Source of the DNA: Planctomycetaceae bacterium
GTDB lineage: Bacteria; Planctomycetota; Phycisphaerae; Phycisphaerales; UBA1924
NCBI GenBank assembly: GCA_021294835.1
Contig: JAJTDF010000003.1
Span: 1 to 64,000, forward strand
Direction of reading: 5' to 3'
DNA length: 64,000 bases
Part shown: one piece after another, positions 3,430 to 49,058 of the stretch
How the letters are laid out: each line of letters starts with the position of its first letter
How positions within the stretch are numbered: position 1 is the first letter of the stretch
Notes under the pieces: model-generated
The model's database searches: none
Told to the model about the DNA's origin: nothing
What the model saw: only the letters and a program-made list of their open reading frames with translations
Translations under genes and position numbers: made by a program

Positions 3430-3456
3430 ACGCCGCGGCGATCCGCGCTGCCCCCC

Positions 3457-24542: not shown

Positions 24543-24551
24543 CGGCCCGAC

Positions 24552-27500: not shown

Positions 27501-27698
27501 CGTGGAGATGAAGCCCCGCACCGTTTCGGCCGAGGCGCCGATGTACGCGGTGGTGATCACCACCGACGAACTCTCGATCCGCGGATACTGCCTCACCGGC
27601 AAGAGCGAGATGGCCCGGAACCCGATGGCCAGAATGACCAGGTTGACCACCACGGCCAGAACCGGCTTGCGGATGAAGATGTCGGTGAGGGCTTTCAT
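24552..27698 (-). CDS. RND efflux pump, inner-membrane subunit
   Basis: 1,048 residues from the ATG before KALTDIFIRKPVLAVVVNLVILAIG; upstream in-frame codons encode Gly-rich junk. This is a full-length HAE-1/AcrB-like pump with 12 predicted membrane helices and two large periplasmic loops. Recognisable blocks are VRQYPRIESSSVVITTAYIGASAETV, the TM4 proton-relay segment VLAVGLVVDDAIVMVENVERH with its Asp pair, and the TM10-12 region GLITLVGLVAKNGILIVEFAN. It is driven by proton influx and exports drugs, dyes or lipids. It is transcribed after its adaptor (182-nt gap). No TolC-type channel gene is in the window. Confidence 0.94.
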   Translation of the reverse strand: MKALTDIFIRKPVLAVVVNLVILAIGFRAISLLPVRQYPRIESSSVVITTAYIGASAETVRGFISTPIERAVAAIDGIDYIESTSIAGLSTITVRLRLNHPSNAALAEISARLNQVRSELPQEAESPVVNIQRTDRPYATFYVSFTSDRMDLMQLTDMLSRQVQPAFSTIEGVQRVDIEGPRNLAMRIWLDRERLTALDVTPLEVQRALSRNNFLASVGTSKNADVQVDLLTDTDLRSVEDFQRLIIREENGVIVRLRDVARVELGSEEAISETGLNGRPAIYLSVWPLPSANELEVAERLRATMERVRPALPTGVDMILAFDGTFYMNNAIKEISKTLAETVAIVGLIVFLFMGSLRTVLVPLIAIPVSLVGACLVMLVLGFSLNLLTILAIVLAVGLVVDDAIVMVENVERHLRDGMGRLQAALTGARELLSPVISMTITLAAVYAPIGFQAGLTGVLFKEFAFTLAAAVIVSGVVALTLSPVMSAYLASEKGRESGFARWVNGRFDRLRALYGRVLDTTLQMRWSMALATVLVAIAAIPMYRLSSKELAPTEDEGFVFFILQNPPDASLDAMRRAATEVSQRMLALPDTVQTFSILQPSFGFGGALLKNWSSREASSFQVQQQAFGAVSSVAAVRAIPVLPPPLPGAGQFGVEMMVTANDVPERMEAVAQQIVGRAFASGKFMFADTDLKIDLPQTRIVIDREKVADLGLDLATVGSELAVMLSGGYVNRFNLDGRSYKVIPQIAPSERVTPEQILQLKMRSSSGGLVSVSSFVRLETVTAPRSLNRFQQRDSMKIYGEAAPGVTKEEALFALEQIAREVLPVGYAIDYAGESRQIRTEGASLTVTLGFALGLIYLVLAAQFSSFRDPLIVLLGSVPLAITGALVFTYVDLTTVNIYSQVGLITLVGLVAKNGILIVEFANHLREQGVDKLSAAKEAAQTRLRPILMTSAATVFGHFPLVLVTGPGAEARNSIGIVLVAGMTISTVFTLLVVPSIYVLLAGRRAVHIPPEADGGGHSGRIPGRSAEVVSAVGPIPGAGKAEPQPA

Positions 27699-27880
27699 GG
27701 AGCTGTTCCGCGACCCCCGGGACCCATCCTGACACACGCCCGCCCCCGCACACCACCCTGCCGCAGTCTTCCCCCGCACGCCACCGCCCGACTCCACACC
27801 CTGCATCCACACCGCGTCACCGGTCCGCTGACAGCCGAAACACGGCCACCACGCTCACCGCCAGCCAGCCACGCCCGGGA

Positions 27881-29173
27881 TCATTTGCCGGCGGTCGGCT
27901 GCGGCTCGCCCGCGCCCGGGGCCGCTGATCCGGCCGGTCCGCCCGTGGCCCCGCCCGCGGGCACCTCCGCCACCAGCGCACCCTCGAACAGCTTGAAGCT
28001 GCCGTCGGCCGCCACCTTGTCCCCTTCGTTCAATCCGCTCAGCACGATGGTCCGGTTGCCCACCGCCGGGCCGAGTTTCACCAGCCGCTGGCGGGCCCGC
28101 TGCTTGGCGGGGTCCTTCGGGTCCGGCCCGACCATGAAGACGTGGTCGCCGAACGAGGCCCGTCGCACCGCTGTGCTCGGCACCGTCAGCATTCTCTGCT
28201 CATCCCCCACTGGCACCGAGATGTCCACGAACATGCCCGGCTTCAGCCGCCCGGCCGAGTTGTCCACCACGCCCCGCACGCGAACGTTCCGCGTCCCGCT
28301 GTCCACTGTTGCATCAATCGCCGACACCGTGATGGTCACCGGTTCGGCCCCCAGCACCTCCGACACCGCCTGCACCGCATCGCCCACCTTCACCCGGCTG
28401 ATCTGCTCCTGAGGGATGGCGAAGTCCAGGAAGATGTCCGGCGTGATCTCCTGCAGGGCCACCACCTGAGAACCTTCGGCCAGATACTGCCCCGGATGCG
28501 TCGACCGGATGCCCGCTCTGGCCTGGAATGGCGCCCTGATGGTCTTCTTGGCGATCTGCGCCTGCACTTGGGTCACCCGCGCCCGCGACTGATCCAGTTC
28601 CGCCGACACCCGCTGTACCGTCGCCCGCTCGCGCTCCATGTCCGCTCTGGCCCGGTCCAGGTTCGCCGCAGCCCGGTCAACATCGCTGCGGGCCACTGCC
28701 GCCGATTGGCTGGCCTGCTGATTCCGCTCCAGTTCCGCCTGTGCAAAGCGAACATCCACCTCCGCCACCTTCACGTTCGCCTGCGCCACCTCCAGCGCCG
28801 CCTCGGCCAGCCGCACCGCCGCTTGTGCCGCCACCAGATCCGCCCGCTCGCTGGTGGCGTCCAGCCGCAGCAATTCCTCACCCGCATCCACCGTCACGCC
28901 GGAGTCAAAGCCGACATATTCAACCACGCCGGCCAGTTCATTGCTGACCATCACCGACCGCTTGGCCACCACATTGCCCACAAGCCTCGCCGTCGGCCGC
29001 CAGGCCGTCCGCTCCGCAGAGACCGTCACCACCGCCGTCGGCATCTCCGGCATCTGCTGCTGCACTGCCGACTGATTCATCCAATGCCGCCACCACGCCA
29101 CACCGCCTGCAGTGACCGCCAGGAGGCCGAACATGACCCCAATCCCGACAACACGCTTGGTATCCAACTGCAT
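27881..29173 (-). CDS. RND efflux adaptor (AcrA/MexH-like)
   Basis: 430 residues from the ATG before QLDTKRVVGIG, 3 nt after GGAGGAGC-type purines. An N-terminal membrane helix (VVGIGVMFGLLAVTAGGVAWW) leads to a half-lipoyl (GFDSGVTVDAGEELLRLDAT), an Ala-rich coiled-coil hairpin, the second half-lipoyl (TIRAPFQARAGIRSTHPGQYLAEGSQVVAL), the beta-barrel and the membrane-proximal domain (VPSTAVRRASFGDHVFMV). It should bridge the downstream RND pump to an outer-membrane channel. The final ~25 residues are Gly/Ala/Pro-rich. Confidence 0.93.
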   Translation of the reverse strand: MQLDTKRVVGIGVMFGLLAVTAGGVAWWRHWMNQSAVQQQMPEMPTAVVTVSAERTAWRPTARLVGNVVAKRSVMVSNELAGVVEYVGFDSGVTVDAGEELLRLDATSERADLVAAQAAVRLAEAALEVAQANVKVAEVDVRFAQAELERNQQASQSAAVARSDVDRAAANLDRARADMERERATVQRVSAELDQSRARVTQVQAQIAKKTIRAPFQARAGIRSTHPGQYLAEGSQVVALQEITPDIFLDFAIPQEQISRVKVGDAVQAVSEVLGAEPVTITVSAIDATVDSGTRNVRVRGVVDNSAGRLKPGMFVDISVPVGDEQRMLTVPSTAVRRASFGDHVFMVGPDPKDPAKQRARQRLVKLGPAVGNRTIVLSGLNEGDKVAADGSFKLFEGALVAEVPAGGATGGPAGSAAPGAGEPQPTAGK

Positions 29174-29238
29174 GCTCCTCCCCGCCCGCAGGGCCTTGCC
29201 GGCCGCACGCACGGCCGTCGCAGCCCGTGCAGGGGAAC

Positions 29239-30747: not shown

Positions 30748-32160
30748 ATGCCTCCCATCTCCGCCCAGAATGCGACGAACCCGACCGGATCGGATGTGAT
30801 CCGCGAGGTGTTCCTCTCCCCGCGGGTGGTGGACCGCGAGGCCTTCAACGAGTATGCCACTCAGCTCCGTCGGCTGATCGAGCAGACCGCCGAACACGCC
30901 GGCCAGCTCCGCAACGCCGCTGACGACGCCAACACCGCCCAGCAGAATCTGCTGGCTTCGGCCGCTCGCAACCAGCCGAAGGTCGAGGCCGCCCTGAAGA
31001 CGCTCGCCGCCATTGAGGCCCGCAGCCTTGGCGTGGAGCGGCTGATCAAGCAAGCCGAGACCCAAGCCGCCAGACTGGCCGAGCTCGAAGCTCATGCCGG
31101 AAGGGTGCTTGAGGATCGTCTGGGCGAAGTCGCCGCCACCGTGGAACGGCACGTTTCCGACGGCCTGGAGCGCATCGCCGCTGCCGCGGAACAGAGCACT
31201 GCGTCGCTCACCGCTCAACGAGAGGCCGCTCAGACCCAGATCAAGCTGGCAGCTGAGGACTCCGCCGCCCTGATCAGCACTGCCGCCGCCGCCGCCGAGA
31301 GCCGCTACGCCGAGATTCGATCCGAGGCTGCCCGGGTGATGCAGGAGGCCCAGGCGAAAGCGGCCGAACTCAGCGCCCTTCACAGTGCAGCGCTGGCCGA
31401 GACCGAGCGTCGTCTCCTGACGCTGGCCGAGGTCGCCGACCGCAAGATGGCTCAGCTCAACGCCACCGGCGACCGCATCAGCCAGCAATTCAACTCCCTG
31501 CTCGCCCGGGCGGAGGCCCTGCTGCTGGATGACCCGCAGACCGGCGCGCCTTCCCCTGCCTCCACACTGCCCGCCCTGGTCAAACAGGCCGAGCACCTCA
31601 GCGACGATGCCGGGTTCGCCACCCGCCAGCTCGCGGCCGTCCGCCAGCAGGCCGACCTCGCCCGCGAGCTGCTCGGCAAGAGCATCCTGACCGCCGCCGA
31701 ACAACTCGACATGCTCGCCGCCGAAGCCGACAAACTCAAAGCCGGCGTCGGCGACCTTCGCCACGCCGCCGCCACCGCCGCCGAGAGCGCCGCTCACCGG
31801 AAAGCCGAGATCACCGCGGCCCTTCAGGGCCCGCTGGTCGAGATCGAATCGATTGGTGATGAACTGCGCCAGCGTCTGACCGACGCCATGCGACAGGTGC
31901 AGGAAGCCGAGGCCCGCTCGCGGCAACTGGGCGGAGACACCAAGACCGTTGTCGACATGCTCAGCGGTCTGGTCGACAAGCTCGAACCCTGGCGCCCGCT
32001 CCTGATCGAGCAGAAACCCGGCGAACTGCCCGCCCCGCTGGCCAAGCTCATTCAGGAAGTGCAGGGCAAACTCGCCGCAGACCTCGCCCGAGTTGCCGAT
32101 GGGCTGGGCGGCATCTTCGGCCGCACCAGCGATCTGGCCAAGAGCCTCTCCAAGCCGTAA
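30748..32160 (+). CDS. Long Ala-rich coiled-coil protein
   Basis: 470 residues, no family recognised. From residue ~35 to ~440 the sequence is almost all heptad-like Ala/Glu/Gln/Leu/Arg helix (for example LRNAADDANTAQQNLLASAARNQ, and AELEAHAGRVLEDRLGEVAATVE), with one Pro-rich break near residue 265 (DPQTGAPSPASTLPAL). There is no signal peptide or membrane helix, so it is cytosolic. It follows the two bactofilin genes on the same strand and could be a filament-associated structural protein. An MCP-like signalling domain was looked for and not seen. Confidence 0.75.
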   Translation: MPPISAQNATNPTGSDVIREVFLSPRVVDREAFNEYATQLRRLIEQTAEHAGQLRNAADDANTAQQNLLASAARNQPKVEAALKTLAAIEARSLGVERLIKQAETQAARLAELEAHAGRVLEDRLGEVAATVERHVSDGLERIAAAAEQSTASLTAQREAAQTQIKLAAEDSAALISTAAAAAESRYAEIRSEAARVMQEAQAKAAELSALHSAALAETERRLLTLAEVADRKMAQLNATGDRISQQFNSLLARAEALLLDDPQTGAPSPASTLPALVKQAEHLSDDAGFATRQLAAVRQQADLARELLGKSILTAAEQLDMLAAEADKLKAGVGDLRHAAATAAESAAHRKAEITAALQGPLVEIESIGDELRQRLTDAMRQVQEAEARSRQLGGDTKTVVDMLSGLVDKLEPWRPLLIEQKPGELPAPLAKLIQEVQGKLAADLARVADGLGGIFGRTSDLAKSLSKP

Positions 32161-33064: not shown

Positions 33065-33092
33065 AAGCCCCGATCCCAAAGGACCGGGGCTT
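33065..33092 (-). terminator. Rho-independent terminator of the giant gene
   Basis: An 8-bp stem AAGCCCCG/CGGGGCTT, extended by three inner pairs around a CAAA loop. On the minus strand it is followed by TTTTTCTTTG, a proper U-tract. It lies 43 nt after the stop of the giant gene. Confidence 0.88.
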
Positions 33093-33134: not shown

Positions 33135-36100
33135 TTACCGCACGCCGAAGATGCGGCGGAGCAGCAGCTCGCTATTCTGCTGACCGAGGAAGAACTGCGT
33201 GCCGGAGTTCACCGAACCCTGGCCGGCCAGAGCGCGGCTGAGGTTCAGGTACCGCGGGCCGGTGCCCGCGACCGTCGTCGCCGGCGGCAGCGGCTGAGCG
33301 CCGACCTCGGGAATCGGCCGCAGGGCCGCCGCGTTGCCGGTGTCGCCCATCGTGTCGGTCACAACGGCGTCCGGGGTGGCCGGGTTGCCGTCGGTGTCGA
33401 TGGTGAACAACCCGGTCGGAGCGGTGATACGCAGACCCAGCAACTCGCCGACCTGACGGCCGACGATGTACGTGAGCTGACGGATGAACCGGTCAACGCC
33501 ATCAGCCGAGGGCGAGTTGCCCAGAGCGTTCAGCGACGGCATGAACACCACGCCCTGATCGGTGCGACGGGCGTTGAACGGGTCGGAGCCCTCGGTGGCC
33601 CCGAACGTGCCGTTGTTGAAGAACGCCGGCGGCTCAAAGCTGCCGGACAGGATCACCGTGCTGGTCCGATCGCGTTCGGTCGAGAAGTCGGCGGCATTGG
33701 CGCTGAACCGCACGGTGTTGGCCGGCAGATTGGTCACACTGGTCGGCGTTCCGTTGAACAGTTGGTTCAGCGAGGCGATCAAGCCCGGCTGGTTGCGGTT
33801 GGCGTTGCCATTGAGGATGTAGTCCAGGATCGACTGCGACCCGATCAGGCCGGTGAACCCGTTGATCGACGGGTCATAGGCGGCCAGATTGGTGAGGCGA
33901 CCGCCGGTCTCCAGCCAGTTGACGATGGCGCCGCGGGTCTCGATGAGGATGTTCTGCGGGCGGGTCTGCGGGACCGGGCTGATCGACGCCAGCTGCACGA
34001 TCTCCACGCCGTAATCCGACTGGATGGCGCCCTGCACGTACACGGCGAACGAACCGGGGCGGGTGGCCGAGCCCTGCGACGGGGGCACAGTGAACTCGAT
34101 GTAGTAGTCGCCGTTGGCGTCATAGCCGTACTTGGTCGTCTCGCTCTCACCCACCACGCGGTTGGGCGTGGGGTTGAGCAGGTCGATCTCCGAGGGCGAG
34201 GCCAGCAATTGGCCGTTGGCCAATTGATCCGCAACGGTGCGTTCGAACAGACCGAACTGGACGAATCCCCGCAGGTCACGCAGCCGCAGACCGATCTGGT
34301 TGTTCAGTTCAAACTGCTCGGGAACCTGCGAGCCGAAGTTGCCGCCGTTCTGCTGCACCTTCAGAGTTACGCGATAGCGCGTGCCGGGCAGAATGGCCTG
34401 GCCGCCGTTGAGGTTGAACACATCCACATCGGGCCGGGTCTCGCGAGGTGCGCCCTTGCCGCCGATCTCGCCCGTCGCACCGTTGACGGTCAGGATGTCG
34501 CCGTTTGCCACACCGTCGAACCGCCCCGTGGTCGGGTTGGCCCGGTACTCGATGATCTGGCCGCCGGTGGAGACGCCCCGGACGATGTCGTCCGACCGGA
34601 CGGTTCCGGCACCGTTGCCCTCGAACTTGCCGTTGGCGCCGGGGTCGAGCGTGAACCGCCACTCACCAATGGTGATCGACGGAGTCGCCGTCGGTCCGGC
34701 GAGCACCGACGGCAACTGGGCCGTCGGCGTGCCGGCGGGAGCAAAGTCGTTCGGACGGGGCGGCGTGACCAGATCGATCCCCGAGGCCGAAGCCGAGGCG
34801 ATCGTGATCACATCATCCCCGTTGCCGAACACACCGTCAACGCCGGGTGTTCGGACCACGTTCATGGTGCCGGTGGTGCCCACCACCGCCGTGTTGTGCT
34901 GCAACGCCACGGAGGTGATTACGTCGTCGTTGGTCCCCAGCACGTTGTCGATGCCCGCGGCACGGGTGACGCGTGCCAAGCCGTTGTCACCAGTGATCGT
35001 GTCGTCGGCGCCCCCCGGACCGTTGAGGTTCAGCGTGAAATCGAAGTTCACGCCCACGGTGGCCGCACGCGTCACCACGCCGGCGCCGAAGTCCGCCGGA
35101 ACCGGCAGATTCGCGACGGTGTTCCCGCCGGCGACCGAGGACGCCGGCACCGTGCCCTGTCGCAGCCGATACACCACCGAGGGTCCCAGCGGAGACGCCA
35201 CCGTGATGCCGTTTGCCAGTTCGCCCGCGGTGTCAAAGTCCGCTGGCACAGGAACCGAGCCCGCCGGCACCGTACTCAGCACCTTGGTATCCGGCGTGAT
35301 GATGTCATCGGCAGTGTTGAAGATCCGGTCCGGACCGGCCGTCCGGGTGACCACCACGTTGTTTGCGTTGGCGCCGATGATCACGTCGTCATTGACGCCG
35401 TTGTGAATACCGCGGATGCGATCCCCGCCCGCGTCCAAGAAGAAGTCGAACGGGGCGCCGACCGACGAATTGACGTTGACGATGTTCCCGTCGGAGAACA
35501 AGTCGCTGTAAGGCAGCGGAGCCGCCACCACCGCGTCCCGCTCCGGCAGGCCGACGGTCGACCGCGACACCAGAGCCCCCTCGACAAAGCTCAAGGAGAG
35601 CACGCCGTTGGTGCCGAACACGATATCGTCGCCCACCAGCGGGTCCGGCGCGTTGCGGATGCCGTCGGCACCCGGCAGCAGCGTCCACGTCCACACCGAG
35701 CCGTCGCTCGAGAGTGTCCGCACGGTGCTGCCCAAGCTCGGGAAGTTCGCCAGCGAGGCCTCAGGCGCATCGGTGATCGGCACCGCCGCCGGCTCGTTGA
35801 CCGACGAGGTGATCACGTCGTCACCGTCGCCGAGGATGTTGTTGGCCCCGGCGGTGCGGGTGATGACCGTGCCGATATTGGTACCGCGGATGATGTCGTC
35901 GTTCACGCCGCCGTTCAGGCCGCGGACTCCATCGGCGCCGAGGTTCAGGACGAATTGGAAATCCGGGCCGGTTGACGCGGTGCGGGTCACCACGCTGGCG
36001 GGCGTCGCAAAGTCTGCGTTCCCCGGCAGGTTCGCCGGCGTGTTACCGCCCGCCACCGTCGCCGCAGCCTGGAGCAGCGTCAGGGTGATCTGGTCATCGG

Positions 36101-39100
36101 CGGTGCCGAAGATCAGGTCAGCGCCCGCACGCCGCTCCACACGCACCAGCGCGGGGCCCGCGCCGCCGTCGCTGCTCTCGCCGATCAGCACGTCGTCGTT
36201 GCTGTCGTCGCCGGTGCCCACGATCCCGTCGGTGCCGGGGTTCAAGTTGGCGATGCCGTCCGGGCCGACGTTGTACGTGAAGGCGAAGAACGAGTCGCCC
36301 GCTATCGCCGGCATGAAGTGAGTCTGCGTGAGCGGGAACTGCGCTGCGCTGCTGATCGGTACCGAGGCGGTCGGAGCGCCCAGGCCGTTAGCCAGCGGAC
36401 GTCCGGCGAAGCCGCTGTTGCGGTCGTCGCTGATGGTGATGGAGAAGTCGTAGCTGCCCGTCGCCAGCGGCGCCGGAGCCACGTTCACCACGGCCACGTC
36501 CAGCAGTGGAGACGGCGTGAACTGCGTCGGCAGGAATGCCGGATTGACATCCGCGGAGGTGGTACCCAGCGGATCGCGTGAGCCCACGTACAGCACGTAC
36601 TGACCGGTCTGCTGTACGAGGAAGATCTGGTCGCCGTTGACGTCGCCCGCTTCCGGGTCGCTCACCGGAAGTGCCTGAAGTGCGCCGGTCGCCGTCGCCA
36701 GCTGCCCCGGGCCCTGGCCCGTCGTGTCCATCTTCAGCAGGTTCACCGCTGCCGCCACCGCGTTGCCGCGGAGGGCGCCCAGCCGGATGATCTGGCCGGC
36801 CTGCAGCGTGATCGAATACAGGTCAACATCCGAACCACTCAGGTTCGTCGCGCTGGTGTCGGGATGATCACCCAGCACGCCTCGCAGCGTGTAAGTGCGG
36901 CCCACTGCCGGCAGGGCGCCGGCGCGACCCGAGTCGCTCATCATCACATCCAGGCTGGCCGGATCGGTGTACGTCACGAGCGTCGGGCCGGCGACCCCGG
37001 TGCCCGCGAAGAATCTGTCGCCGACGTCGCCCACCGGCGTCACGAACCGATACCCGTCACCCGGAAGGCCGTCGGAGTTGCCGTCAATCGTGCCGTCCTG
37101 GTTGACTGCTCGCAGAGATGTGGACAGCTCGAACCGGTAAATGCCGGGACCGGCTTGGCTGGGCCGAGTGTCGAAGCCCGGCGTGTTGTTGATGTTGTTG
37201 CGGCTGGTGACAGCCTGGTTGAACACGATGATCGCCGTCCGCGTCGCCTCGTCGTACGACACGCGGTAGTCCGGGTCCGAACCGGTGTTGCTGAGCACAA
37301 ACTCGCGACCGTCGGCACGCACGTCGATGATCGACAGGGCCGACGCCGACGGGTTGGCCGGATCGAACAGGCTCAGCGGATTGATCTGCTGGTTGAAGGT
37401 GATGCGAGCTGTGTACACCCGGGCGAACTCGGTCACCGTCAGGCTGACCACCTGAATGCCCGTCGCCACGGTCTCCAGGCGGGTCACGCGGAAGTTGCCC
37501 ACGCCCTGCCCGTTGGCCAGCGACGTCGAGCCGCTGATCACCGAGGTGACGGTGCCGTTGGAGATCACGCGGTAGCTCTCGCTCTGCAGCTGAGAGCCGA
37601 CAATGCCACCGGTGACACGAACGGTGCCGATGGTCGAACGGCCGTCCGAGGCGATGTCGTCGCGTGTGCCGAGGAAGCCGTCCACGCCGCGGCGTACGCC
37701 GGCCGCAACGTCAGACTGGATCATCTGGCCGGTGACCGTCACCGTCGTGATGTTGCCGTTGGTGGTCACATCGTCAGAGTTGACCGACGTGAACAAGCCG
37801 TCCGGGCCAAGGTCGGTGCCGGCGAGGATCGACGACTCGCGCATCACGCCGTTGACCGTGGTGGTGCGGATGTCATTGCGGGCGGAGACAAGGGCGTTCT
37901 CCATGCCTGTCGTCGTGACCGTCGTGAACGACCCGCCGCTGCGCAGCTGCGAGAAGACCATCGGACCGGCGATGTTCACCGTCGTCACGTCCCGCAGGAT
38001 GCTCACCGTGGTGCGGGTCAGGCCGGCGGGCGTGCCGGTGGCCCCCGTGGTACGGATCGTGCCCGCCGAGCGAGCCTCGATGCGGGCGTTGCCGCCGGAT
38101 GGAGCGGAAATGCCGCCGGTTGCGTTCAGCGTGCCCAGGTTGCCGCCCACCAGCAGGTTCAGCCGGTTGGTCGACAGGTTCGGTGCCGCGCGGCCCACGT
38201 TGGCCGTCGTCAGGTCACCGCCGACCCGGATGTCGCCGGTGGTCACGGCGCCCCCGGTCAGGCCCAGCGTGCCCACGTTGCCGTCGACGTAGATGCCCGA
38301 GTCGCCGACGAACGGCAGGGCCGTCGTCAGTGTCGTGATCGTCACGTCATCGGAAGTGACCACGTCGAAGTTGCTCAACTGGCTCGCCGGGGTCACCGAG
38401 CCCGGCTCGATCACCAGACTGCTGACGGTCGCCAGACGGGTCTGGTTAGCGCCGGTGCCGGCCGGAGCAGTCAGGCTGTTGCGGACGATGATCCGGTTGG
38501 TGTTCTGGTCATAGACCGCCGCCACATTCGCACCGGTCAGGCGGATGCGGATCGTTCCGGCTCCGCCGGGCAGAGTGACCTGCGTGACGGTGCCGTTGAT
38601 CGGCAGCGCTGTGACGCCCGCGCCCACCGGCAACGCGCCGTTGAAGGCCACCGGCGAGTTCACTGTGTTGGTGAATGCCTGCAACACCGAGGCCGCCGCC
38701 GAACCCGTCACGTTGGTCAGGCTGGTATCGGCCGCGATCGACACCCGTGCGTTGACCGCGGTGGAAACCACACCCGACACGCTCACCGTGCCGACCGTCG
38801 AGAGCCCTGGCACTGACAGTTCGTTGCTGTCGCCGGACGCATAGACCCCGTCATCGCCCGCCGTGGTGCCGGCGGTGATCGTCACCGTGTTGGTGCTCAG
38901 CGGGGCGGTTGAGTTGCGTCCCGTGATCGTCACGTTGCCCACGCGGCCCGCCTGCAGCGAGTCCGCATTGGCCCCGGCGCCGCCGGGGCGGCTGTCGGCG
39001 CCGAAGTTGGGCGAGAAGTCCGCGTTGCGCGAAGCCACGCCGCCGATGATCGCCAGGCCCTGCGCCCGGCCGCCGATGGTCACGGTGTTCACGCCGTCGC

Positions 39101-42100
39101 CCGCCGCGATGTAGCTCGCGGTGTTTCGAAGAGCCGTCACCGCGTCAGTCTGACTGTCGCTGAGCAGGTTGCCGGTGATGTTCACGGTCGCCAGCGTGCG
39201 GCCGGCGTAGATGCCGACCTCGAACGCCGAACCGGACGCTGTCACCGAGGAAATGTCCAGCCCGGCCCAGATGCGGGGACCGTCAATACCCGCAGTCGCG
39301 ACCACGCCCGGAGGCAGTTGGTTGCGGAACGAGTCGCCCGTTACCGGCGTGTTGGATGCCAAGGTCGGATCGACGCCCAGGTTGCCGAAGGCGCCGCTGC
39401 CGGTCACAGCGATAGTGCCGATCGATCCATCGCGGGCGACGACCGAGCCGAACAGGTTGCCGTTGGTCACACGGACGGTGGTGATGTCGCCGTCGCGGGC
39501 CTCAACAGAGTTGCCCAGCGCCGAACGCCGGATCGAGCCGTTGGTGACCGTAACCGTGCCGATGCCGCCGGAGTGGCTGAGGATCGACCCGCCGAAGTCG
39601 CCCACCACCGTCACGGTGGTGATGCGGCCGAAGGCGACAATCTGCGGATCGCCGATCTGGTCGGCGGCGCTCGAGCCCGGCAGGGCAAACGGGCGACGCA
39701 CCGATCCGATGTTCACCGTGCCGATCGTCGACGCCGAACGCACATCCGCATTCAGCTGGGCCCCCGCCTTGAGCGTGGTGATCTTCCCGTCAACGTCGAT
39801 CGCGTCCGGCGTGGAAACCACGTCACCCGAAGTGATCAGACGGCGGCCGATGCTGCCCTTGGCGTCCACCGTGCCCAGGTCGCGGCGAATGCGCAACGTC
39901 GCCAGCATGTCGCGGCCGGACCGCAGCGTGTTCAGGTTGCCGTCTGCGGTGTCGGTGGTTTCGATGCGGCCGCTGATGTCGCCGCTGGTCGTCGAGATCG
40001 TGCCGATCGTGCCGGAGGAGAAGATGTTGGCGTCGATCGAGTTGGTCGCCGTGATCGAGCTGATCCGGCCGTCCGGGCCCTCGGCCGAGATCTGACCGTT
40101 GATGATCGACCCGCGCACGGTGATGGTCTCGATCGGACCGGCGATCGTCAGCGTGGAGGAACGGATGCTGCCCGATGCCGTCAGCGACCGCAGGCCGCCG
40201 GAGATGACCACAGTCGACCGCATGTCATTGGTCACCGTCATCGAGGTGATGCGGTTGTCCACGCGGAAGTTCGAGCGGATGATGTCGCGGGCCGACACCG
40301 TGCCGGTGATGAAGCCGCCGACGTCCACGATGGCGTCGGAGATCACGCCGACCGAGGAGTTGGTGACCTGCAGATTGGCCATGTTGCCCGTGGTCTGGAT
40401 CAGCAACTGACGGAACTCCAGCGGCTCGCCGCCGAGCGTGGAGTTGCGGAAGTTGTCCGCCGTGATGGTGCCGATGGTGCCCTGCGTGCGGTCGTCCGCC
40501 ACCGGCTCGATGCTGCGGGCCTCGATGCGCGACGCATCGATGTTGCCGCCCACACGCTGGCCGTTGGACAGCGCCGAGGTGAAGCGCACGGTGCCGATGT
40601 TCTGGCCGTAGATCGTCGATCGGGTCAGGCTCACGCCCGTGCCCGTCACCGTGCCGATGCGGCCCGCGGGGATCTCGCTGTCGCCGATGTTCAGGTTTGT
40701 CTGCGAAGCGCGGGCCGAACGCCACCAGGCGTCGAACGCCGAGGCGCCGATGAACGCGCCGTCGATCCGGCCCGAGGTGATGTTCACCGAGTTGATGCCC
40801 AGCGGAGCCGCCGGCGTGCCCACGCCCGCCGAGATGATCAGACCCGAGATCACCGGGTTGCGCACCCGCGTGCCGCCCACCACGCTGTTGATCAGCGTGC
40901 TGGCCGCGACCGACGCCACCGGGAACGGGCTGTCGCCCGGCCCGATCAGGCCGTCGCCCACGTCCACCGTGGTGATGGCCGCCGCGTAGATGTTGCCCAC
41001 CAGACCGTCGAACCGGTTCTCGGCGGTGGAGTTGTCCGTGTTGGCCACCACCGTGCCCAGCACGCCCGTTGCGCCCTGCAGAATCACGTCGCCGATGCTG
41101 CCCGAGGCCCGCACCGACACCACGTTGCCGCTCCGGACCACCAGGCCGTCCAGGAACGGATCCATCACCGAGCCGAGATCTTCCAGACTGTTGCTTGTCG
41201 TGCCGGAATCCCAGTTGATCGGCACCACCACGTCGCTGCCGAAGCGGTTGCCGCCGCCGGCCACGTTGAATCCGGCCGGATCCACCCCCAGCGCTCCGCC
41301 GATGGCGTTCACCAGCCCGCCCGCGTTGCCCACCCGCTGGCCGAAGCGACGGTCGCCGATGCCCGGCGTATTCGTGCCCTGGCCGGCGTATTCCGTGCTG
41401 CCCAGGTTGCCGCGGGTCACCTCAAGGGTGTCCAGCGAGCCCGCGTCGACCATCACAAAGTCGCCGTTGACGGTGTTGTTGACGATCCGGGCCGCCCCGG
41501 TCACGTTCATCCGCAGAACATCGAACTCGGTGCCGGCGGGGCCGGTGAAGGTGATCGTGCCGGCGCGGGCCGTGCCGCCACCGCCGCCGCCGTCGACCGT
41601 GATGTTGATCAGGCCCAGCGCGATCACGCCGGGGGCCACGCCCGTGAAGGTCACGTTGCCGCCGGCGGGAACCGTGATGTCGATCCGACCGACGGTGATG
41701 CCCTGGCTGACATTCACCGGCAGATACCGCAACTGACCGCTGCCGCCCGTCGGCAGCGTCACCGTGAAGCTGGCGCCGCTGTCATCCAGGAACACCTGGC
41801 TGGTGCCCGAGGGCAGCGGAAGGAAGGCATTCTCGTTCGGCGTCGCACCGCCGGTGCCCAGCGTCACATTTCCGCCGATCTGCGTGAAGCGGATGTCCGA
41901 GCCCGCACCCATCTGGATGGTCGGCTGGAACAGCGCCACGCGGCCGCCGATGATGAACCGGTCGATCCGCGAGTTGGCGCTGGTGGTGATGGTCACCGCC
42001 GGGCCATTCATGTCGTTGGTCGCGGACAGTTCGCCGATGTGGCCCGGCGTGCCGTTGTTGCCCGTCCGGATAACCACCGGGCCCGATGCGCCTGGCGTCT

Positions 42101-45100
42101 TGCGGGGCGTGCCGTTGGTCTGCACGCCGATGCCGCCGGCGAACACCATCGCGCCGATCTGCCCGCCCACCACGATGTTGCCCGCGTTGAAGTCGCCGTT
42201 GCCGGCCGCGAACAGGCCGAAGGCGTTGGTCGCCAGCGTGCCCAGGTTGCCGCCGATGGTCAGCGAGCCGGACTCAAAGTCGGCGCCGATCAGCACGCCG
42301 TGCACGTTGCTCTGAACGTTCACCACCAGACCGCGCATGCTGGCCAGATCGCGGGCGGACTCGATGGACACCGAGGTGATGCCGTTGGAGAACGCCTGGC
42401 TGGAGTCGCCGGCGACAAAGCCCGCGCCCACGCGGATCAGGCCCACGTCGCCCGAGGGCACTGTGACCTGCGAACCGACTCGCGAGGTCGAGCCCGAGGA
42501 GTACATGCCCAGCGTCGTGGGCAGGTTGCCCGAGATCGTCGCGGTGTAGTCGATCGCCGTGCCGGTCTGGCCGGTGGCGGTGTCATCGGGGCTGGAGAGC
42601 ACCAGGAAGTACACGTCCGTCCGCGTCGGCGTGAAGCGGAACCGGGCCGTGGTGATCTCCTGCGGGGACTGCGCCTGCGGATTGGCGAACGGGAACTGGT
42701 GCGTCGCCACCACATTGCCGTTGCGGTCCACCACGCGGGCGTAAACCCGCTCGCGGCTCTGCGGCTGAGGCGTCGGCGGCGGCGGATCGCGGAACTCGAC
42801 GTTCAGCACCACTTCCTGGCCGACCCCGGCGGCGAACGCGAACGCGTCAGAGTTGTCCTCGTCGGTGTTCACGCCGTCACGCAGGCCCAGTCGCCCGTTG
42901 ATGATCACACCCCGGTTGCCGGCGCCGACGAACTCGGCCCCGGTCAGCAGGTCGTTGCGGTACACGCCGGCGCCGAACCACGCCGCCTGTCCCGCCGAGC
43001 CGTTGGCCCCCACCACCGCCCCGATGACCTGCCGCTGAGGATCCTGATTCGGCGGATCGAAGTTGAAGACCTGCTCCAATTCGCCGTACCGCAGGAAGTC
43101 CAGCCTCGCCAGCGTCGGATCGTTGATGTTGCCCTCAACGGTGATCGGCGTCGTCGCACGGCCGCCGATGAGGATCTGGCCAACTGTGCGGCCCACCACA
43201 ATGGTGTTGCCTGTGGCGACCACCGGGTCGGTCGTCGCCTGAGCACCGGGCAACTGCCAGTTGCCCAGATCGCCGGCAACCACCAGCGTGCCCAGGTCGC
43301 CCCGGACGTCAAGCGAGCCGAGCATCACGCCCACGTCAAAGCGCCGCAGCGTGCCCGCAACGGCGCTGGAGCCGAACAGCATGCCGTGGATGGAGACCGA
43401 GCCGAGGTTCTGGCCCACGCCGTCCACCGTGCCGGCAAAGATGCCCATCCGCAGCCCCGAGGGCAGAGCCCGGTCGCCGGGGAGGCCGTCGGTGAAGCGG
43501 CCGAACTGGTCGCGGGCATCCTCCAGCAACTGCCCGTTGTAATCCAGCAGAGCCGGCGCCACGGCGCGGGCGGTGCCCGTCGGCACCAGTCCGCCGCTGA
43601 AGCCGCCCGGGCCCTGGTCCACCCGCACCAGATTGGCGCCCTGACGCACTGACGGCATGATCGACGCGAACGCGATCTGCGTGTTCACGTTCGGGTTGAC
43701 GCCGTGATAGGTCACCGGTGTCCGCGGATCGCGGACATACGGCGAGCCGATGATCACCGACCCGGTGCCGATCGGCAGCCCCCCGGGGTTGGTCCCGCCC
43801 TGGGCGCCCTGCCCGTTCGGGAAAGCCAGTCCGAAGCCGCCCTGCTGAATGTCCCCGTAGATGCCCTGCACGCTGTCGGGCAGCACGAACACGATGTTCT
43901 GGTTGGCGTCCTCCTCGACGGTGCCGCCGATGAAGGTGATGCCGCTGGTCGAACTCACGCCCAGCAGATCCACCCGCCCGATGCCGTCGTTGAAGTCGGG
44001 CACGCCGTCGCCGTTGAGGTCGACATTGAGCACCTCGCCGTCACCGCCGTTGCCCAGCGTGAGGGTGTTCTGCAGGGCCCGTCCGTACGTGTCCTGAACG
44101 AACGCGTTGGCGAAGAAGCCGATGACGTTGTCGATCTGGATCTGGTCAGCCGTCGTCGTGATCGCCGGCGCGTTGGGGGCCGCCGGGTTCACCGAGGGCT
44201 GACGCCGCAAGATCCGCACCGTGTCAAAGCCCTGGTCATTACGGATCATCAACTGCAGGCTGCCCGCATCACCCGTCGCCTGATTGATGAACTGTGCAGC
44301 GAGATTCGGGTCCTGCAGGAACACGTCATCGGTCAGTTCCAGCACCTGGCGACCGTCGGCAAGCTTGAACGGCACCAGCGTGCCGTTCCGGAACAACTGA
44401 ATCGACGTGAACTGGTCGAGGCCGTCGGTGCCCGTATTCGGCAGGGTCAGGCCGAAGGCGGTCATGACGCGGGCCGTCTGCAACTGGCCCGCAGGGGGCA
44501 TGAACTGCAGATCCACCGTCTGCGTGCCGCCCACGCTGAACGTCAGCGCCTGGTTCTGCGCTGCGCCGGCGAGCGGGGCAAGCTGGCTGGCGCTCAGACC
44601 GAGCGTCGGCACATCATCGGTGTTCCGACGCACCAACAGCCGCGAGCTCAGGCCGTTGCGAGTCGTCGCCGGGAAGGCGTACACGCCCGTCGAACTGCTC
44701 GTCAGGCTCGAGTTGTCGAACTGCTCAAGGCCGAACAGCGAGCGGCCCGAGACCGCCATCTGAGCGCCGAAGATGCGGGCGTCGACCGTCTGGTTGAACC
44801 GCGAGGGCGCAAACACGCCGGAGATGGCGTCGATGAAGATCGTGTCGGTGCCGGCCACCGCCGCGCCGCCGCCCAGGGTGTTGCGGGTGAACTCGATGGT
44901 GTCGAAGAACGCGAACTGATCCTCAGGAGCCCCGCCCTGCGCCGGCGTCGCCCGGCTGATCACAATGTCCGACGTCGGCGGATCCGGCACCGGGTTGGCC
45001 GTCTGCCGGGCGAAGCGGAACTGCGAGGTGACATCCAGCCCGCGATACAACAGCCGGATGCGGGTGGCGCCCGTCTGGATGCCGTTCGCGTCGAAAGTCA

Positions 45101-45935
45101 GCTGGGCGTCCATGTTGGTGTCGGGCTGACCCGCCACCGTCGCCGTTGAGAGCGTGACCGTCGCACCGGCCATCGGCCGCTGCCGACCGATGCCGCTGGC
45201 GGTCTGCGCAGGGCTGTACCGGCTCGCACCGCCCCCGTTGAGCAGTTCCGGGTTGCTCGTCGCCGTGCCGTAGCTGAAGCTGACCACCGGCGCGATGTTC
45301 ACGCCCCCCACGTTCTGCGCCGTCAGTGTGAACCGCACGCCCGCGCCGCTGGACGAGGTGCCGCCGCCGGCCGGCGGGTTGGTCACCAACGCCGGGGCGT
45401 TTCCGCCCGGAGCAGCCGCATAGTTGTAATACCGAAGCCGCAGACGCGACTCGCCCTCAAACGCGCCCGCCGCCGGGCCGTTGCCCGACCGCAGGCCCCC
45501 CGCCGGCGCCGCGCCCAGCGTGTACTGCGTCACCACCGTGTTCGGCGTGGTCACACCCGCTGTGCCGGGCTCGTCGTTGAAATCCTCAGCCACGGACTGA
45601 AACGGCTGGAACGCCTGAATATCTCGCGACAGCATCGGCACCAGGTAGCCGAACTGCGTCGTCACACTGGCGCCGTTCGGCACACCCTGACGAGGCAGCG
45701 TCACCACGTTGTTGCCGCCGAACACCAGGTTCGTGCCCGGAATCGCCTGTCCGGCCGCCCCGATCGGCGGCAGGATCGTCGCACCGAACATCAGTTGCCG
45801 AGCCTCAAGCTGCTCCAGTGGAGTCGCCGCCTCATCCGTACCCCCCGCTCGGGACAGAAGCTCGCGTGCATTCGAGGCGGGCTGGGCAGATTGATTCTTC
45901 AGCAGATCACCCAGCAGCTTCACGATCGTCTTCAT
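33135..45935 (-). CDS. Giant cysteine-free surface protein with planctomycete LExR-type leader
   Basis: 4,266 residues in one uninterrupted frame; ATG at 45935, 7 nt after GGAG. Residues ~37-50 (TPLEQLEARQLMFGAT) resemble the LEPR-XLL leader of planctomycete exported proteins; there is no classical signal peptide. No cysteine was found anywhere. Residues ~1-850 include an EF-hand-like DLNGDGVPDFNDG. From ~880 to ~2,790 the sequence is a run of ~20-25-residue GxIxTVxVxGxxxxSxI repeats, suggesting a long beta-solenoid. A PPC-like domain lies at ~3,010-3,130 (GRTYTLRGVLGDH...GSDVDLYSITLQAGQ...GQYVLYVGS). Six Asp-rich repeats fill ~3,215-3,820. The last ~230 residues resemble a metzincin domain with its zinc site lost. 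It is probably exported and filamentous, for adhesion or cell-surface structure. It is monocistronic, with its own leader and terminator. Confidence 0.9.
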   Translation of the reverse strand: MKTIVKLLGDLLKNQSAQPASNARELLSRAGGTDEAATPLEQLEARQLMFGATILPPIGAAGQAIPGTNLVFGGNNVVTLPRQGVPNGASVTTQFGYLVPMLSRDIQAFQPFQSVAEDFNDEPGTAGVTTPNTVVTQYTLGAAPAGGLRSGNGPAAGAFEGESRLRLRYYNYAAAPGGNAPALVTNPPAGGGTSSSGAGVRFTLTAQNVGGVNIAPVVSFSYGTATSNPELLNGGGASRYSPAQTASGIGRQRPMAGATVTLSTATVAGQPDTNMDAQLTFDANGIQTGATRIRLLYRGLDVTSQFRFARQTANPVPDPPTSDIVISRATPAQGGAPEDQFAFFDTIEFTRNTLGGGAAVAGTDTIFIDAISGVFAPSRFNQTVDARIFGAQMAVSGRSLFGLEQFDNSSLTSSSTGVYAFPATTRNGLSSRLLVRRNTDDVPTLGLSASQLAPLAGAAQNQALTFSVGGTQTVDLQFMPPAGQLQTARVMTAFGLTLPNTGTDGLDQFTSIQLFRNGTLVPFKLADGRQVLELTDDVFLQDPNLAAQFINQATGDAGSLQLMIRNDQGFDTVRILRRQPSVNPAAPNAPAITTTADQIQIDNVIGFFANAFVQDTYGRALQNTLTLGNGGDGEVLNVDLNGDGVPDFNDGIGRVDLLGVSSTSGITFIGGTVEEDANQNIVFVLPDSVQGIYGDIQQGGFGLAFPNGQGAQGGTNPGGLPIGTGSVIIGSPYVRDPRTPVTYHGVNPNVNTQIAFASIMPSVRQGANLVRVDQGPGGFSGGLVPTGTARAVAPALLDYNGQLLEDARDQFGRFTDGLPGDRALPSGLRMGIFAGTVDGVGQNLGSVSIHGMLFGSSAVAGTLRRFDVGVMLGSLDVRGDLGTLVVAGDLGNWQLPGAQATTDPVVATGNTIVVGRTVGQILIGGRATTPITVEGNINDPTLARLDFLRYGELEQVFNFDPPNQDPQRQVIGAVVGANGSAGQAAWFGAGVYRNDLLTGAEFVGAGNRGVIINGRLGLRDGVNTDEDNSDAFAFAAGVGQEVVLNVEFRDPPPPTPQPQSRERVYARVVDRNGNVVATHQFPFANPQAQSPQEITTARFRFTPTRTDVYFLVLSSPDDTATGQTGTAIDYTATISGNLPTTLGMYSSGSTSRVGSQVTVPSGDVGLIRVGAGFVAGDSSQAFSNGITSVSIESARDLASMRGLVVNVQSNVHGVLIGADFESGSLTIGGNLGTLATNAFGLFAAGNGDFNAGNIVVGGQIGAMVFAGGIGVQTNGTPRKTPGASGPVVIRTGNNGTPGHIGELSATNDMNGPAVTITTSANSRIDRFIIGGRVALFQPTIQMGAGSDIRFTQIGGNVTLGTGGATPNENAFLPLPSGTSQVFLDDSGASFTVTLPTGGSGQLRYLPVNVSQGITVGRIDITVPAGGNVTFTGVAPGVIALGLINITVDGGGGGGTARAGTITFTGPAGTEFDVLRMNVTGAARIVNNTVNGDFVMVDAGSLDTLEVTRGNLGSTEYAGQGTNTPGIGDRRFGQRVGNAGGLVNAIGGALGVDPAGFNVAGGGNRFGSDVVVPINWDSGTTSNSLEDLGSVMDPFLDGLVVRSGNVVSVRASGSIGDVILQGATGVLGTVVANTDNSTAENRFDGLVGNIYAAAITTVDVGDGLIGPGDSPFPVASVAASTLINSVVGGTRVRNPVISGLIISAGVGTPAAPLGINSVNITSGRIDGAFIGASAFDAWWRSARASQTNLNIGDSEIPAGRIGTVTGTGVSLTRSTIYGQNIGTVRFTSALSNGQRVGGNIDASRIEARSIEPVADDRTQGTIGTITADNFRNSTLGGEPLEFRQLLIQTTGNMANLQVTNSSVGVISDAIVDVGGFITGTVSARDIIRSNFRVDNRITSMTVTNDMRSTVVISGGLRSLTASGSIRSSTLTIAGPIETITVRGSIINGQISAEGPDGRISSITATNSIDANIFSSGTIGTISTTSGDISGRIETTDTADGNLNTLRSGRDMLATLRIRRDLGTVDAKGSIGRRLITSGDVVSTPDAIDVDGKITTLKAGAQLNADVRSASTIGTVNIGSVRRPFALPGSSAADQIGDPQIVAFGRITTVTVVGDFGGSILSHSGGIGTVTVTNGSIRRSALGNSVEARDGDITTVRVTNGNLFGSVVARDGSIGTIAVTGSGAFGNLGVDPTLASNTPVTGDSFRNQLPPGVVATAGIDGPRIWAGLDISSVTASGSAFEVGIYAGRTLATVNITGNLLSDSQTDAVTALRNTASYIAAGDGVNTVTIGGRAQGLAIIGGVASRNADFSPNFGADSRPGGAGANADSLQAGRVGNVTITGRNSTAPLSTNTVTITAGTTAGDDGVYASGDSNELSVPGLSTVGTVSVSGVVSTAVNARVSIAADTSLTNVTGSAAASVLQAFTNTVNSPVAFNGALPVGAGVTALPINGTVTQVTLPGGAGTIRIRLTGANVAAVYDQNTNRIIVRNSLTAPAGTGANQTRLATVSSLVIEPGSVTPASQLSNFDVVTSDDVTITTLTTALPFVGDSGIYVDGNVGTLGLTGGAVTTGDIRVGGDLTTANVGRAAPNLSTNRLNLLVGGNLGTLNATGGISAPSGGNARIEARSAGTIRTTGATGTPAGLTRTTVSILRDVTTVNIAGPMVFSQLRSGGSFTTVTTTGMENALVSARNDIRTTTVNGVMRESSILAGTDLGPDGLFTSVNSDDVTTNGNITTVTVTGQMIQSDVAAGVRRGVDGFLGTRDDIASDGRSTIGTVRVTGGIVGSQLQSESYRVISNGTVTSVISGSTSLANGQGVGNFRVTRLETVATGIQVVSLTVTEFARVYTARITFNQQINPLSLFDPANPSASALSIIDVRADGREFVLSNTGSDPDYRVSYDEATRTAIIVFNQAVTSRNNINNTPGFDTRPSQAGPGIYRFELSTSLRAVNQDGTIDGNSDGLPGDGYRFVTPVGDVGDRFFAGTGVAGPTLVTYTDPASLDVMMSDSGRAGALPAVGRTYTLRGVLGDHPDTSATNLSGSDVDLYSITLQAGQIIRLGALRGNAVAAAVNLLKMDTTGQGPGQLATATGALQALPVSDPEAGDVNGDQIFLVQQTGQYVLYVGSRDPLGTTSADVNPAFLPTQFTPSPLLDVAVVNVAPAPLATGSYDFSITISDDRNSGFAGRPLANGLGAPTASVPISSAAQFPLTQTHFMPAIAGDSFFAFTYNVGPDGIANLNPGTDGIVGTGDDSNDDVLIGESSDGGAGPALVRVERRAGADLIFGTADDQITLTLLQAAATVAGGNTPANLPGNADFATPASVVTRTASTGPDFQFVLNLGADGVRGLNGGVNDDIIRGTNIGTVITRTAGANNILGDGDDVITSSVNEPAAVPITDAPEASLANFPSLGSTVRTLSSDGSVWTWTLLPGADGIRNAPDPLVGDDIVFGTNGVLSLSFVEGALVSRSTVGLPERDAVVAAPLPYSDLFSDGNIVNVNSSVGAPFDFFLDAGGDRIRGIHNGVNDDVIIGANANNVVVTRTAGPDRIFNTADDIITPDTKVLSTVPAGSVPVPADFDTAGELANGITVASPLGPSVVYRLRQGTVPASSVAGGNTVANLPVPADFGAGVVTRAATVGVNFDFTLNLNGPGGADDTITGDNGLARVTRAAGIDNVLGTNDDVITSVALQHNTAVVGTTGTMNVVRTPGVDGVFGNGDDVITIASASASGIDLVTPPRPNDFAPAGTPTAQLPSVLAGPTATPSITIGEWRFTLDPGANGKFEGNGAGTVRSDDIVRGVSTGGQIIEYRANPTTGRFDGVANGDILTVNGATGEIGGKGAPRETRPDVDVFNLNGGQAILPGTRYRVTLKVQQNGGNFGSQVPEQFELNNQIGLRLRDLRGFVQFGLFERTVADQLANGQLLASPSEIDLLNPTPNRVVGESETTKYGYDANGDYYIEFTVPPSQGSATRPGSFAVYVQGAIQSDYGVEIVQLASISPVPQTRPQNILIETRGAIVNWLETGGRLTNLAAYDPSINGFTGLIGSQSILDYILNGNANRNQPGLIASLNQLFNGTPTSVTNLPANTVRFSANAADFSTERDRTSTVILSGSFEPPAFFNNGTFGATEGSDPFNARRTDQGVVFMPSLNALGNSPSADGVDRFIRQLTYIVGRQVGELLGLRITAPTGLFTIDTDGNPATPDAVVTDTMGDTGNAAALRPIPEVGAQPLPPATTVAGTGPRYLNLSRALAGQGSVNSGTQFFLGQQNSELLLRRIFGVR
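33429..33464 (-). other. Degenerate metzincin zinc motif in the giant protein
   Basis: The residues VGRQVGELLGLR, followed by I, align with AHExxHxxGLxH of matrixin-like metalloproteases, but H, E, H and H are replaced by R, Q, E and I. The ~60 residues before it (TSTVILSGSFEPPAFFNNG, then FGATEGSDPFNARRTDQGVVFMPSL) also follow the strand pattern that precedes the motif in planctomycete metzincins. It is likely an inactive fold kept for binding. Confidence 0.5.
34480..36300 (-). repeat. Six Asp-rich protein repeats within the giant gene
   Basis: Each repeat has a hydrophobic strand (FxFxLNLGADGIRG or similar), a DDxIxGxN turn, a VTRTAG strand and an NxLGDGDDVIT turn. Copies lie near 36300-36085, 35970-35800, 35700-35570, 35450-35285, 35050-34785 and 34665-34480. 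Two linkers are nearly identical as well (VAGGNTxANLPxxADF near 36060 and 35130). The GxxDDxIT turns recall calcium-binding RTX nonapeptides but are not canonical. Confidence 0.7.
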
Positions 45936-45962
45936 GCCGGACTCCAAGTGCAAGCGAACCAC

Positions 45963-47538: not shown

Positions 47539-48822
47539 TCAGCCCAGAATCCGCTGGCTCCGCGGATAGCTCCCCAGCACAATCAACTCGCGACAATGCC
47601 GCCTCGCCTTGGTGATGGCCGCGGCCACCGGCGCGTCGGATTGGTGCCCCTCGGCGTCGATGAAGAACGTGTAGCTCCAGTTGTTCCGCCCGCTGGGCCG
47701 CTTGTCGATGTGCGTCAGGTTCACCCCAGCCTCCTGGAAGTCGGTCAGCACACGCACCAGCGCACCCGGCTTGTTCAGCGTGCTGAACATGATCGAGGTC
47801 TTGTCATGGCCCGTCCGCCCGGCCTCGTGCCGCCCCAGCACGAAAAACCGCGTGATGTTGTTCGGGTCATCCTCGATGCCATCGAACAGCACGCTCACGT
47901 CGTACAACTCCGCCGCCAACTGACTGCCGATCGCCGCGAGCCCCTCCTGTTCCAGCGTGCCCCGCTCCGCCGCCTCACGCACCATCTGCACCGCCCGGCT
48001 TGAACTGGCCACCGGCACCAGTTCCGCCTGCGGATACTGCGTCGCCAGCCACACCCGGCACTGGCTGAACACCTCCGGCTTGCTGGCGATCCGCCGGATC
48101 TTCGAAGGCTCGCACGCCCCCAGCAGCGCGTGATGCACCTCCAACTGCACCTCGGCGCAGATGTGGATGCCCTGAGGGCCCGACTTCACCCCGCGAGGCG
48201 CCGGACGAGACGCCCCCGCCCCGCTCCCGCCATCACCGGGCATCGCACGCTTGGCAAATGCGTCCAGCGTCTCCACGATCCCCCCCATGATCGAGTTTTC
48301 AATCGGCACCAGCCCGTAGTCCACATGCCCCCGCTGCACCTCCGTGAACACCCCGGCGATCTCGCGCAGATCCTCAAACCCCACCGAACTGCCAAAGTGC
48401 TTCACCGCCGCCATGTGGCTGAAGCTCCCCTTCGGACCCAGGAAACCGATCGTCAAGGGCTTCTCCAACGCGAAGCTCCCGCTCATCAGTTCGCGATAGA
48501 TCCCCTCAATCGTCCGCCCCGGCAGCGGGCCGTTATTCATCGACAGCACCCGTGCCAGCACCTCCGCTTCCCGATGCGGCGCGTAGATCGGCGTACCCGT
48601 CGCCCGCTTCACCTTCCCCACTTCCACCACCAGTTCACTTCGCGCGTTGAGCAGTTCCACCAGCCGGCGGTCCACCTCGTCGATCCGCTCCCGCAATGCC
48701 GCCAGTGTCAGCGCAGCCGATGGCGCCACAGACCCCCCCAAAAAGGTGGTATTTGAGTTCGTGCTCACCCGATTGCGGGATGCGGAGCGGCCAGTTCGGG
48801 ACTTACGCGGTTGCCGTGCCAT
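47539..48822 (-). CDS. pheA: Bifunctional chorismate mutase / prephenate dehydratase
   Basis: 427 residues from the ATG before ARQPRKSRTG. After a basic ~35-residue leader comes an AroQ-type chorismate mutase helix bundle (LAALRERIDEVDRRLVELLNARSELVVEVGKVKR). Prephenate dehydratase follows (IGFLGPKGSFSHMAAVKHFG, VPIENSIMGGIVETLDAF, NNITRFFVLGR with the catalytic TRF), then an ACT domain (NKPGALVRVLTDFQEAGVNLTHIDKRPSG). It makes phenylpyruvate for phenylalanine synthesis in the cytosol. The ACT ESRP position reads DKRP. A ~25-residue Gly/Ala/Pro insert sits after ETLDAFAKR. The enzyme is usually feedback-inhibited by phenylalanine through the ACT domain. Confidence 0.95.
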   Translation of the reverse strand: MARQPRKSRTGRSASRNRVSTNSNTTFLGGSVAPSAALTLAALRERIDEVDRRLVELLNARSELVVEVGKVKRATGTPIYAPHREAEVLARVLSMNNGPLPGRTIEGIYRELMSGSFALEKPLTIGFLGPKGSFSHMAAVKHFGSSVGFEDLREIAGVFTEVQRGHVDYGLVPIENSIMGGIVETLDAFAKRAMPGDGGSGAGASRPAPRGVKSGPQGIHICAEVQLEVHHALLGACEPSKIRRIASKPEVFSQCRVWLATQYPQAELVPVASSSRAVQMVREAAERGTLEQEGLAAIGSQLAAELYDVSVLFDGIEDDPNNITRFFVLGRHEAGRTGHDKTSIMFSTLNKPGALVRVLTDFQEAGVNLTHIDKRPSGRNNWSYTFFIDAEGHQSDAPVAAAITKARRHCRELIVLGSYPRSQRILG

Positions 48823-48831
48823 GCAGCAGCC

Positions 48832-48837
48832 AACATA
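48832..48837 (-). promoter_or_regulatory. TATGTT box just before pheA
   Basis: On the minus strand TATGTT lies 9 nt before the pheA ATG, so a transcript from it would have almost no leader. There is no Shine-Dalgarno sequence for this start. Confidence 0.28.
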
Positions 48838-49058
48838 GCACACGCCCACCTCCCCCACCAGATGCCGCCGTCGACAACCTTGACCGAACCTCCGCCCCGT
48901 CCGGTTCGTTCGATTACAATGCCCGAGAACCCCCCAGGCGTTTCCAAAGCGTCAGGGGGTGGCCCGCCCGTCGTCCGGACCGCAACCGCAACCCCGCAGA
49001 CCGGTCTTGTCGTCAGGCAGGCCTCGCCCCACTCACCCATCGGTCAGGAGCACACACC

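Follow-up and report, generated by a model that had tools for sequence, protein, structure and literature searches.

The 64,000-nucleotide window analysed here (contig JAJTDF010000003.1 of GenBank assembly GCA_021294835.1, from a Planctomycetaceae bacterium) encodes on its minus strand a giant protein of 4,266 residues, in one open frame running from an ATG at 45935 to a stop at 33135. We judge it an even call that this protein is likely exported as a predicted beta-helical rod, with its C-terminal end, a metzincin-like domain devoid of zinc ligands, likely acting as a binding head that does not cut. An earlier note on this DNA had correctly given the coordinates, the 4,266 codons and the complete lack of cysteine. 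The following features are distinguished along the gene:

33135 to 45935, minus strand: giant gene, 4,266 codons and stop (open frame; homologues).
45786 to 45818, minus strand: leader motif LEQLEARQLMF, residues 40-50 (sequence; conserved in giants).
44136 to 45785, minus strand: N-terminal variable region, residues 51-600 (low conservation; most homologues have a shorter one).
42981 to 44126, minus strand: residues 604-985, DLNGDGVPDFNDGIG Asp motif and first beta repeats (family alignment, sequence).
42486 to 42956, minus strand: first PPC-like stretch, residues 994-1150, read by eye (family alignment, sequence).
37701 to 41258, minus strand: predicted beta-helix region, residues 1560-2745 (AlphaFold2).
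37101 to 37466, minus strand: possible Ig-like domain, residues 2824-2945.
36396 to 36983, minus strand: second PPC-like domain, residues 2985-3180 (fold in homologue).
34491 to 36368, minus strand: Asp-rich part with GTxDD-type motifs, residues 3190-3815 (alignment).
33138 to 33953, minus strand: metzincin-like domain without zinc ligands, about residues 3995-4266 (alignment; fold in homologue).
33426 to 33458, minus strand: dead active site RQVGELLGLRI, residues 4160-4170, at the place of HExxHxxGxxH (profile alignment).

Structure modelling of the C-terminal part of a homologue (L062) showed Ig-like, PPC-like and metzincin-like folds, with structural matches to archaemetzincin and to snake-venom and ADAM proteases. 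The metzincin fold is thus seen in the homologue model, and the HExxHxxGxxH motif is absent from the window protein. Among the 52 giants that could be scored by profile alignment, the partial P0007 being left out, 49 have lost all three zinc histidines together with the catalytic glutamate; these comprise 26 members of the window's own family f1 (the window protein counted) and 23 proteins from records without a family code. The motif is retained in three of three giants of f5, another family of the same order, and in its entirety in 30 of 30 other rows, drawn from 21 fetched loci of a further 44 matching genomes and including a 4,138-residue giant of family f12 (L102). It is also found in single-domain relatives such as a 439-residue protein in L031, in which two adjoining frames (positions 101-2292; 300 and 439 residues) each encode a protease of this kind with HExxHxxGxxH intact. 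Across the 49 dead-site giants the first histidine is replaced by R in 48, the glutamate by R in 44 and the second histidine by E in 48, giving a nearly fixed R-R-x-x-E pattern, the window protein itself having R, Q and E; these refilled columns rank 14, 38 and 13 in conservation among 226, and at the third zinc histidine the replacements vary and are mostly hydrophobic. A tree built without the motif columns, from 68 of 82 rows (14 were too gappy and were left out), needs a single change between live and dead sites, with a branch support of 83. The Met-turn methionine is a feature of metzincins; a methionine is present in 20 of 51 giants and nine of 15 small rows, at differing candidate Met-turn columns. 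In the window's own genome the giant is the sole match of an intact-protease query (E 5.2e-5), and the C-terminal profile likewise has a single match in that 170-contig assembly. Given the joint loss of the zinc site, its refilling as R-R-x-x-E and the one-change tree, these alignments fit a single loss of catalysis and later reuse rather than decay. The pseudo-protease end proposed in the earlier note is confirmed and extended by these counts, and the joint loss with refilling by conserved charged residues is new beyond that proposal.

Alignment of 53 proteins, of which the 50 longer than 2,850 residues were scored, revealed conserved blocks at about residues 600-3185 and from 3815 to the end, separated by variable regions at 51-600 and 3190-3815. 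Of the roughly 1,900 residues of beta repeats described earlier, residues 1560-2745 are confidently predicted by AlphaFold2 to form a beta-helix of stacked coils (predicted local distance difference test score 85.9); the fragment prediction that had been named as a possible ground for rejecting a beta-solenoid thus yielded one for this stretch. Best structural matches of the model are a calcium-dependent beta-helical antifreeze protein (3p4g) and the HMW1 secretion domain, and repeat periodicity by a simple test is weak. The PPC-like domain noted previously appears as two stretches by eye, of which the second is backed by a PPC or collagen-binding fold in the homologue model; the window protein has no Pfam PPC (PF04151) match at E 1, and that model matches two of 15 homologues, with a best E of 0.036. 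Whole-protein scans recovered no Pfam or NCBIfam family in the window protein at E 1, and no RTX calcium-repeat family is among its Pfam matches at that threshold. The Asp-rich repeats of the earlier note are indeed present at about residues 3190-3815. This part spans 630 residues in the window protein, 582 in a giant of the same genus and 214 in P0004, against 18-93 in the remaining 50. In the window's genus it is about nine times the length found in most homologues. A whole-protein scan of PDB sequences gave only beta-lactamase matches, to residues 522-596 (E 0.027-0.03), and these were taken as chance.

At the N-terminus the best 15-residue mean hydropathy over the first 90 residues is 1.44, and a Sec-type hydrophobic core is not clear. 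The claim of a planctomycete export-type leader stands as far as the LEQLEARQLMF motif goes, an LExRx[LM][LMF] pattern being present in 47 of 49 giants with an intact N-terminus and near-variants in the remaining two, but it does not extend to membership of the NCBI LEPR-XLL model (NF012209), which matches the L100 leader at 21 bits. Two other proteins of the window's genome carry a similar leader, below the cut-off of that model. In composition, the giant has no cysteine, 10 tryptophans, 10 histidines and 14 lysines, with a net charge of -102. The depletion of cysteine in the giant family is real: 10 occur in 165,654 residues after the leader motif, and 44 of 53 giants have none. In 29 frames of single-domain small relatives there are 125 in 12,833 residues (roughly 0.97%, a rough rate since the frames were cut at the first Met), and the L102 giant has nine in 4,138 residues. 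The earlier note took the lack of cysteine as selection for an exported filament. That argument is weak and was dropped, since the two similar-leader proteins of the same genome have 0 in 558 visible residues and 2 in 547, and lysine, histidine and tryptophan are also rare, so that the absence does not single out a filament; it may instead be tied to the kind of export.

Protein searches recovered as nearest relative a 4,210-residue protein with 44% identity over its full length, and further relatives of 3,134-3,701 residues; an alignment-based search added P0007, named in its source 'beta strand repeat-containing protein, partial'. A contig scan with the window protein as sole query retrieved no relative, and one with the C-terminal alignment as query yielded 29 loci. 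After removal of near-copies there are 52 giants besides the window protein (53 in all, five of them cut short), and a single layout runs through the full-length members. Titles of 21 of the 29 named loci refer to Phycisphaerae, Phycisphaerales or Phycisphaeraceae, and the other eight to Planctomycetota, Planctomycetaceae, Tepidisphaera, uncultured bacterium or Leptolyngbya. The record titled Leptolyngbya sp. PLA1 (L072) holds a giant of the family, and its label looks wrong. The C-terminal profile matched 73 of 397 sampled genomes of the class, with giants in 26 of 45 genomes of f1 and three of f5 (frames of 2,869-4,280 residues); the matching frames in the remaining 44 are below 1,300 residues in all but two. 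A profile of the beta-helix region (E 1e-10; two to four candidates scored per genome) matched 62 of the 397, including the same 26 of f1. On an rpoB tree of 45 f1 and three f5 genomes the giant is clustered but patchy, requiring 6-7 changes versus 15-16 with shuffled labels, and eight of the 19 giant-free f1 genomes form the deepest branches (G090, G113, G096, G201, G213, G221, G288 and G332); its history in f1 may be either a crown gain or a basal loss. Far larger giants with related repeats occur in f3, a family of the same order, in frames of 19,806, 17,845, 12,459 and 7,175 residues that match the beta-helix profile (profile search) at these places:

G143, contig C1, 491720-493168: f3 beta-helix-profile match.
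G205, contig C89, 164005-165450: f3 beta-helix-profile match.
G300, contig C20, 26334-26726: f3 beta-helix-profile match.
G193, contig C1, 3384208-3385008: f3 beta-helix-profile match.

Taken together, these observations suggest a potential mode of action. The giant would leave the cell by means of its leader, fold outside into a rod, perhaps with calcium bound by the Asp-rich part, and take up a place on the cell surface, where the dead former substrate cleft would be presented and could grip a protein or polysaccharide partner. Its ancestor would have borne a live protease at the rod end, as the f5 and f12 giants still do, and in the window's lineage catalysis would have been lost once with the cleft retained for holding. 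A bolder form of this proposal, put forward tentatively and with less confidence, is that in one lineage of Phycisphaerales the protease at the tip of a giant surface rod became a pseudoenzyme adhesin, with zinc and catalysis lost in one event and three positions refixed as an Arg-Arg..Glu set that grips the partner, and that this gave rise to a class of beta-helix appendages tipped by a dead metzincin. Several observations weigh against a rod with a binding head. NF012209 has no match in the window protein or in 15 homologues, Foldseek alone found no PDB match of the beta-helix model at E 0.001 or better, and the C-terminal structure model is that of homologue L062 and not of the window protein. 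A single live/dead change has moderate support (83), with long branches present, and in a FastTree run the clade recurred, but its node carried 0.109 when read on the rerooted tree. Moreover, 19 of the 45 sampled f1 genomes show no giant with either profile at the thresholds used, so the giant is apparently not needed by every member of f1, though such absences are no proof because only the two to four candidates per genome were scored.

The dead domain may also be merely a structural cap or a sorting or anchoring part, with the rod doing the work, an alternative that we regard as rather unlikely but the strongest of those considered. The final residues (T.FFLG.QN...LL) are conserved too, and the model of the type IX secretion system (T9SS) sorting tail matches weakly in two of 15 homologues (best E 0.0014); however, it is precisely at the former active site that the conserved charged residues lie, where a mere cap would hardly need them. 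A SprA_N search for the T9SS translocon gave no match in the window's genome, but control genomes gave none either, and four secretin matches there point to outer-membrane secretins but show no link to the giant. Less probable still is an S-layer or outer-envelope building block packed side by side on the cell, to which the presence of RsaA and SbsC among the structural matches points and which the net charge would suit if the packing were held by calcium. It is improbable, by a slightly wider measure, that the giant is a secreted polysaccharide-degrading or -binding protein with the beta-helix as its working part: no enzyme family matches the window protein or its homologues in Pfam at E 1, and many unrelated proteins resemble beta-helices. 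That the gene is a decaying, unexpressed relic, as the lost active site and a fruitless search for a promoter-like site might suggest, is very improbable in the face of the long open frames in the 53 giants, the strong conservation and the nearly fixed replacement residues.

The frame itself could extend to a GTG at 45962 (4,275 residues), and its third-codon-position GC of 0.88 is a coding signature. A chance frame is excluded because P0002, identical to the window protein, represents 10 sequences on 10 contigs, and because the 4,210-residue homologue matches 100% of the length. The assembly that holds the window, on its contig C143, measures 3.85 Mb in 170 contigs, and the first 978 residues of the giant match it once. 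Transcription of the giant gene alone, as claimed earlier, is plausible from the sequence: a terminator-like hairpin follows it, but no sigma-70-type promoter-like site was found upstream.

33065 to 33092, minus strand: intrinsic-terminator-like hairpin 3' of the giant gene's stop (sequence).

The giant gene has as its same-strand upstream neighbor, about 1.6 kb away, a chorismate mutase-prephenate dehydratase (pheA-type) gene (47539-48858), and such a gene lies upstream of the giant in 18 of 46 loci. A 470-residue protein without a Pfam match (30748-32160, plus strand) has relatives downstream of the giant in eight of the 46 loci, the window's among them. No recurrent candidate for a dedicated export partner adjoins the giant across these loci, where many neighbor clusters are shadow frames and some loci stop close to the giant gene. 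Elsewhere in the window (22467-29212) a T2SSE/MshEN-type ATPase adjoins an AcrB-type pump and an HlyD-type fusion protein.

The family supplies a molecule on which the long-standing question of the role of planctomycete giant genes can be tested, and a clear case of a protease end that became a pseudoenzyme, apparently in a single event, with live forms in other families allowing direct comparison. The excerpts of PMC5177795 used here report genes above 5 kb in all 29 planctomycete genomes available in 2016, cite a share of over 90% for surface proteins or polyketide synthases/non-ribosomal peptide synthetases among the products of giant genes, and connect the largest giants of one strain with cell adhesion, carbohydrate binding and an outer-membrane location. 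The 12.8-kb gene resembles these in exceeding 5 kb, but they are grouped by length in those excerpts, whereas the window's giant belongs to a single defined family, conserved in layout and ending in a dead protease. Giant genes having long been known in planctomycetes, the new class of surface appendage of the earlier note stays at the level of a candidate; of that overall reading the predicted beta-solenoid and the PPC-like, Asp-rich and pseudo-protease parts survive, and the cysteine argument is weak. Unlike the metzincin-type peptidases (archaemetzincin, snake-venom, ADAM), the window giant has neither zinc ligands nor a catalytic glutamate. Serralysins are also metzincins. The giant LEPR-XLL protein of Vibrio sp. 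VB16, reported in PMC10868602 with RTX and serralysin domains, is alike in its LEPR-type leader, its length and, on the Vibrio side, a serralysin near the C-terminus; it comes from another phylum, and the window giant has lost the active site and has no LEPR-model or RTX Pfam match. The antifreeze protein 3p4g shares 12% identity with the window's beta-helix, which has no sign of ice binding. Another giant with beta-helix domains from the Planctomycetes-Verrucomicrobia-Chlamydiae group is described in extracts of PMC12057145, those of PMC7029141 report a Phycisphaera proteome of 173 proteins and mention no such giant, and in the literature search no paper was recognised as treating the window's family. 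The closest comparison of the same class is the L102 giant, which likewise has a leader (LEPLEGRLLLT), beta repeats, an Asp motif (DGVFGTADD) and a protease-like end, with BLAST matches at 22-28% identity, and differs in its intact HELAHNLGLEH and its nine cysteines.
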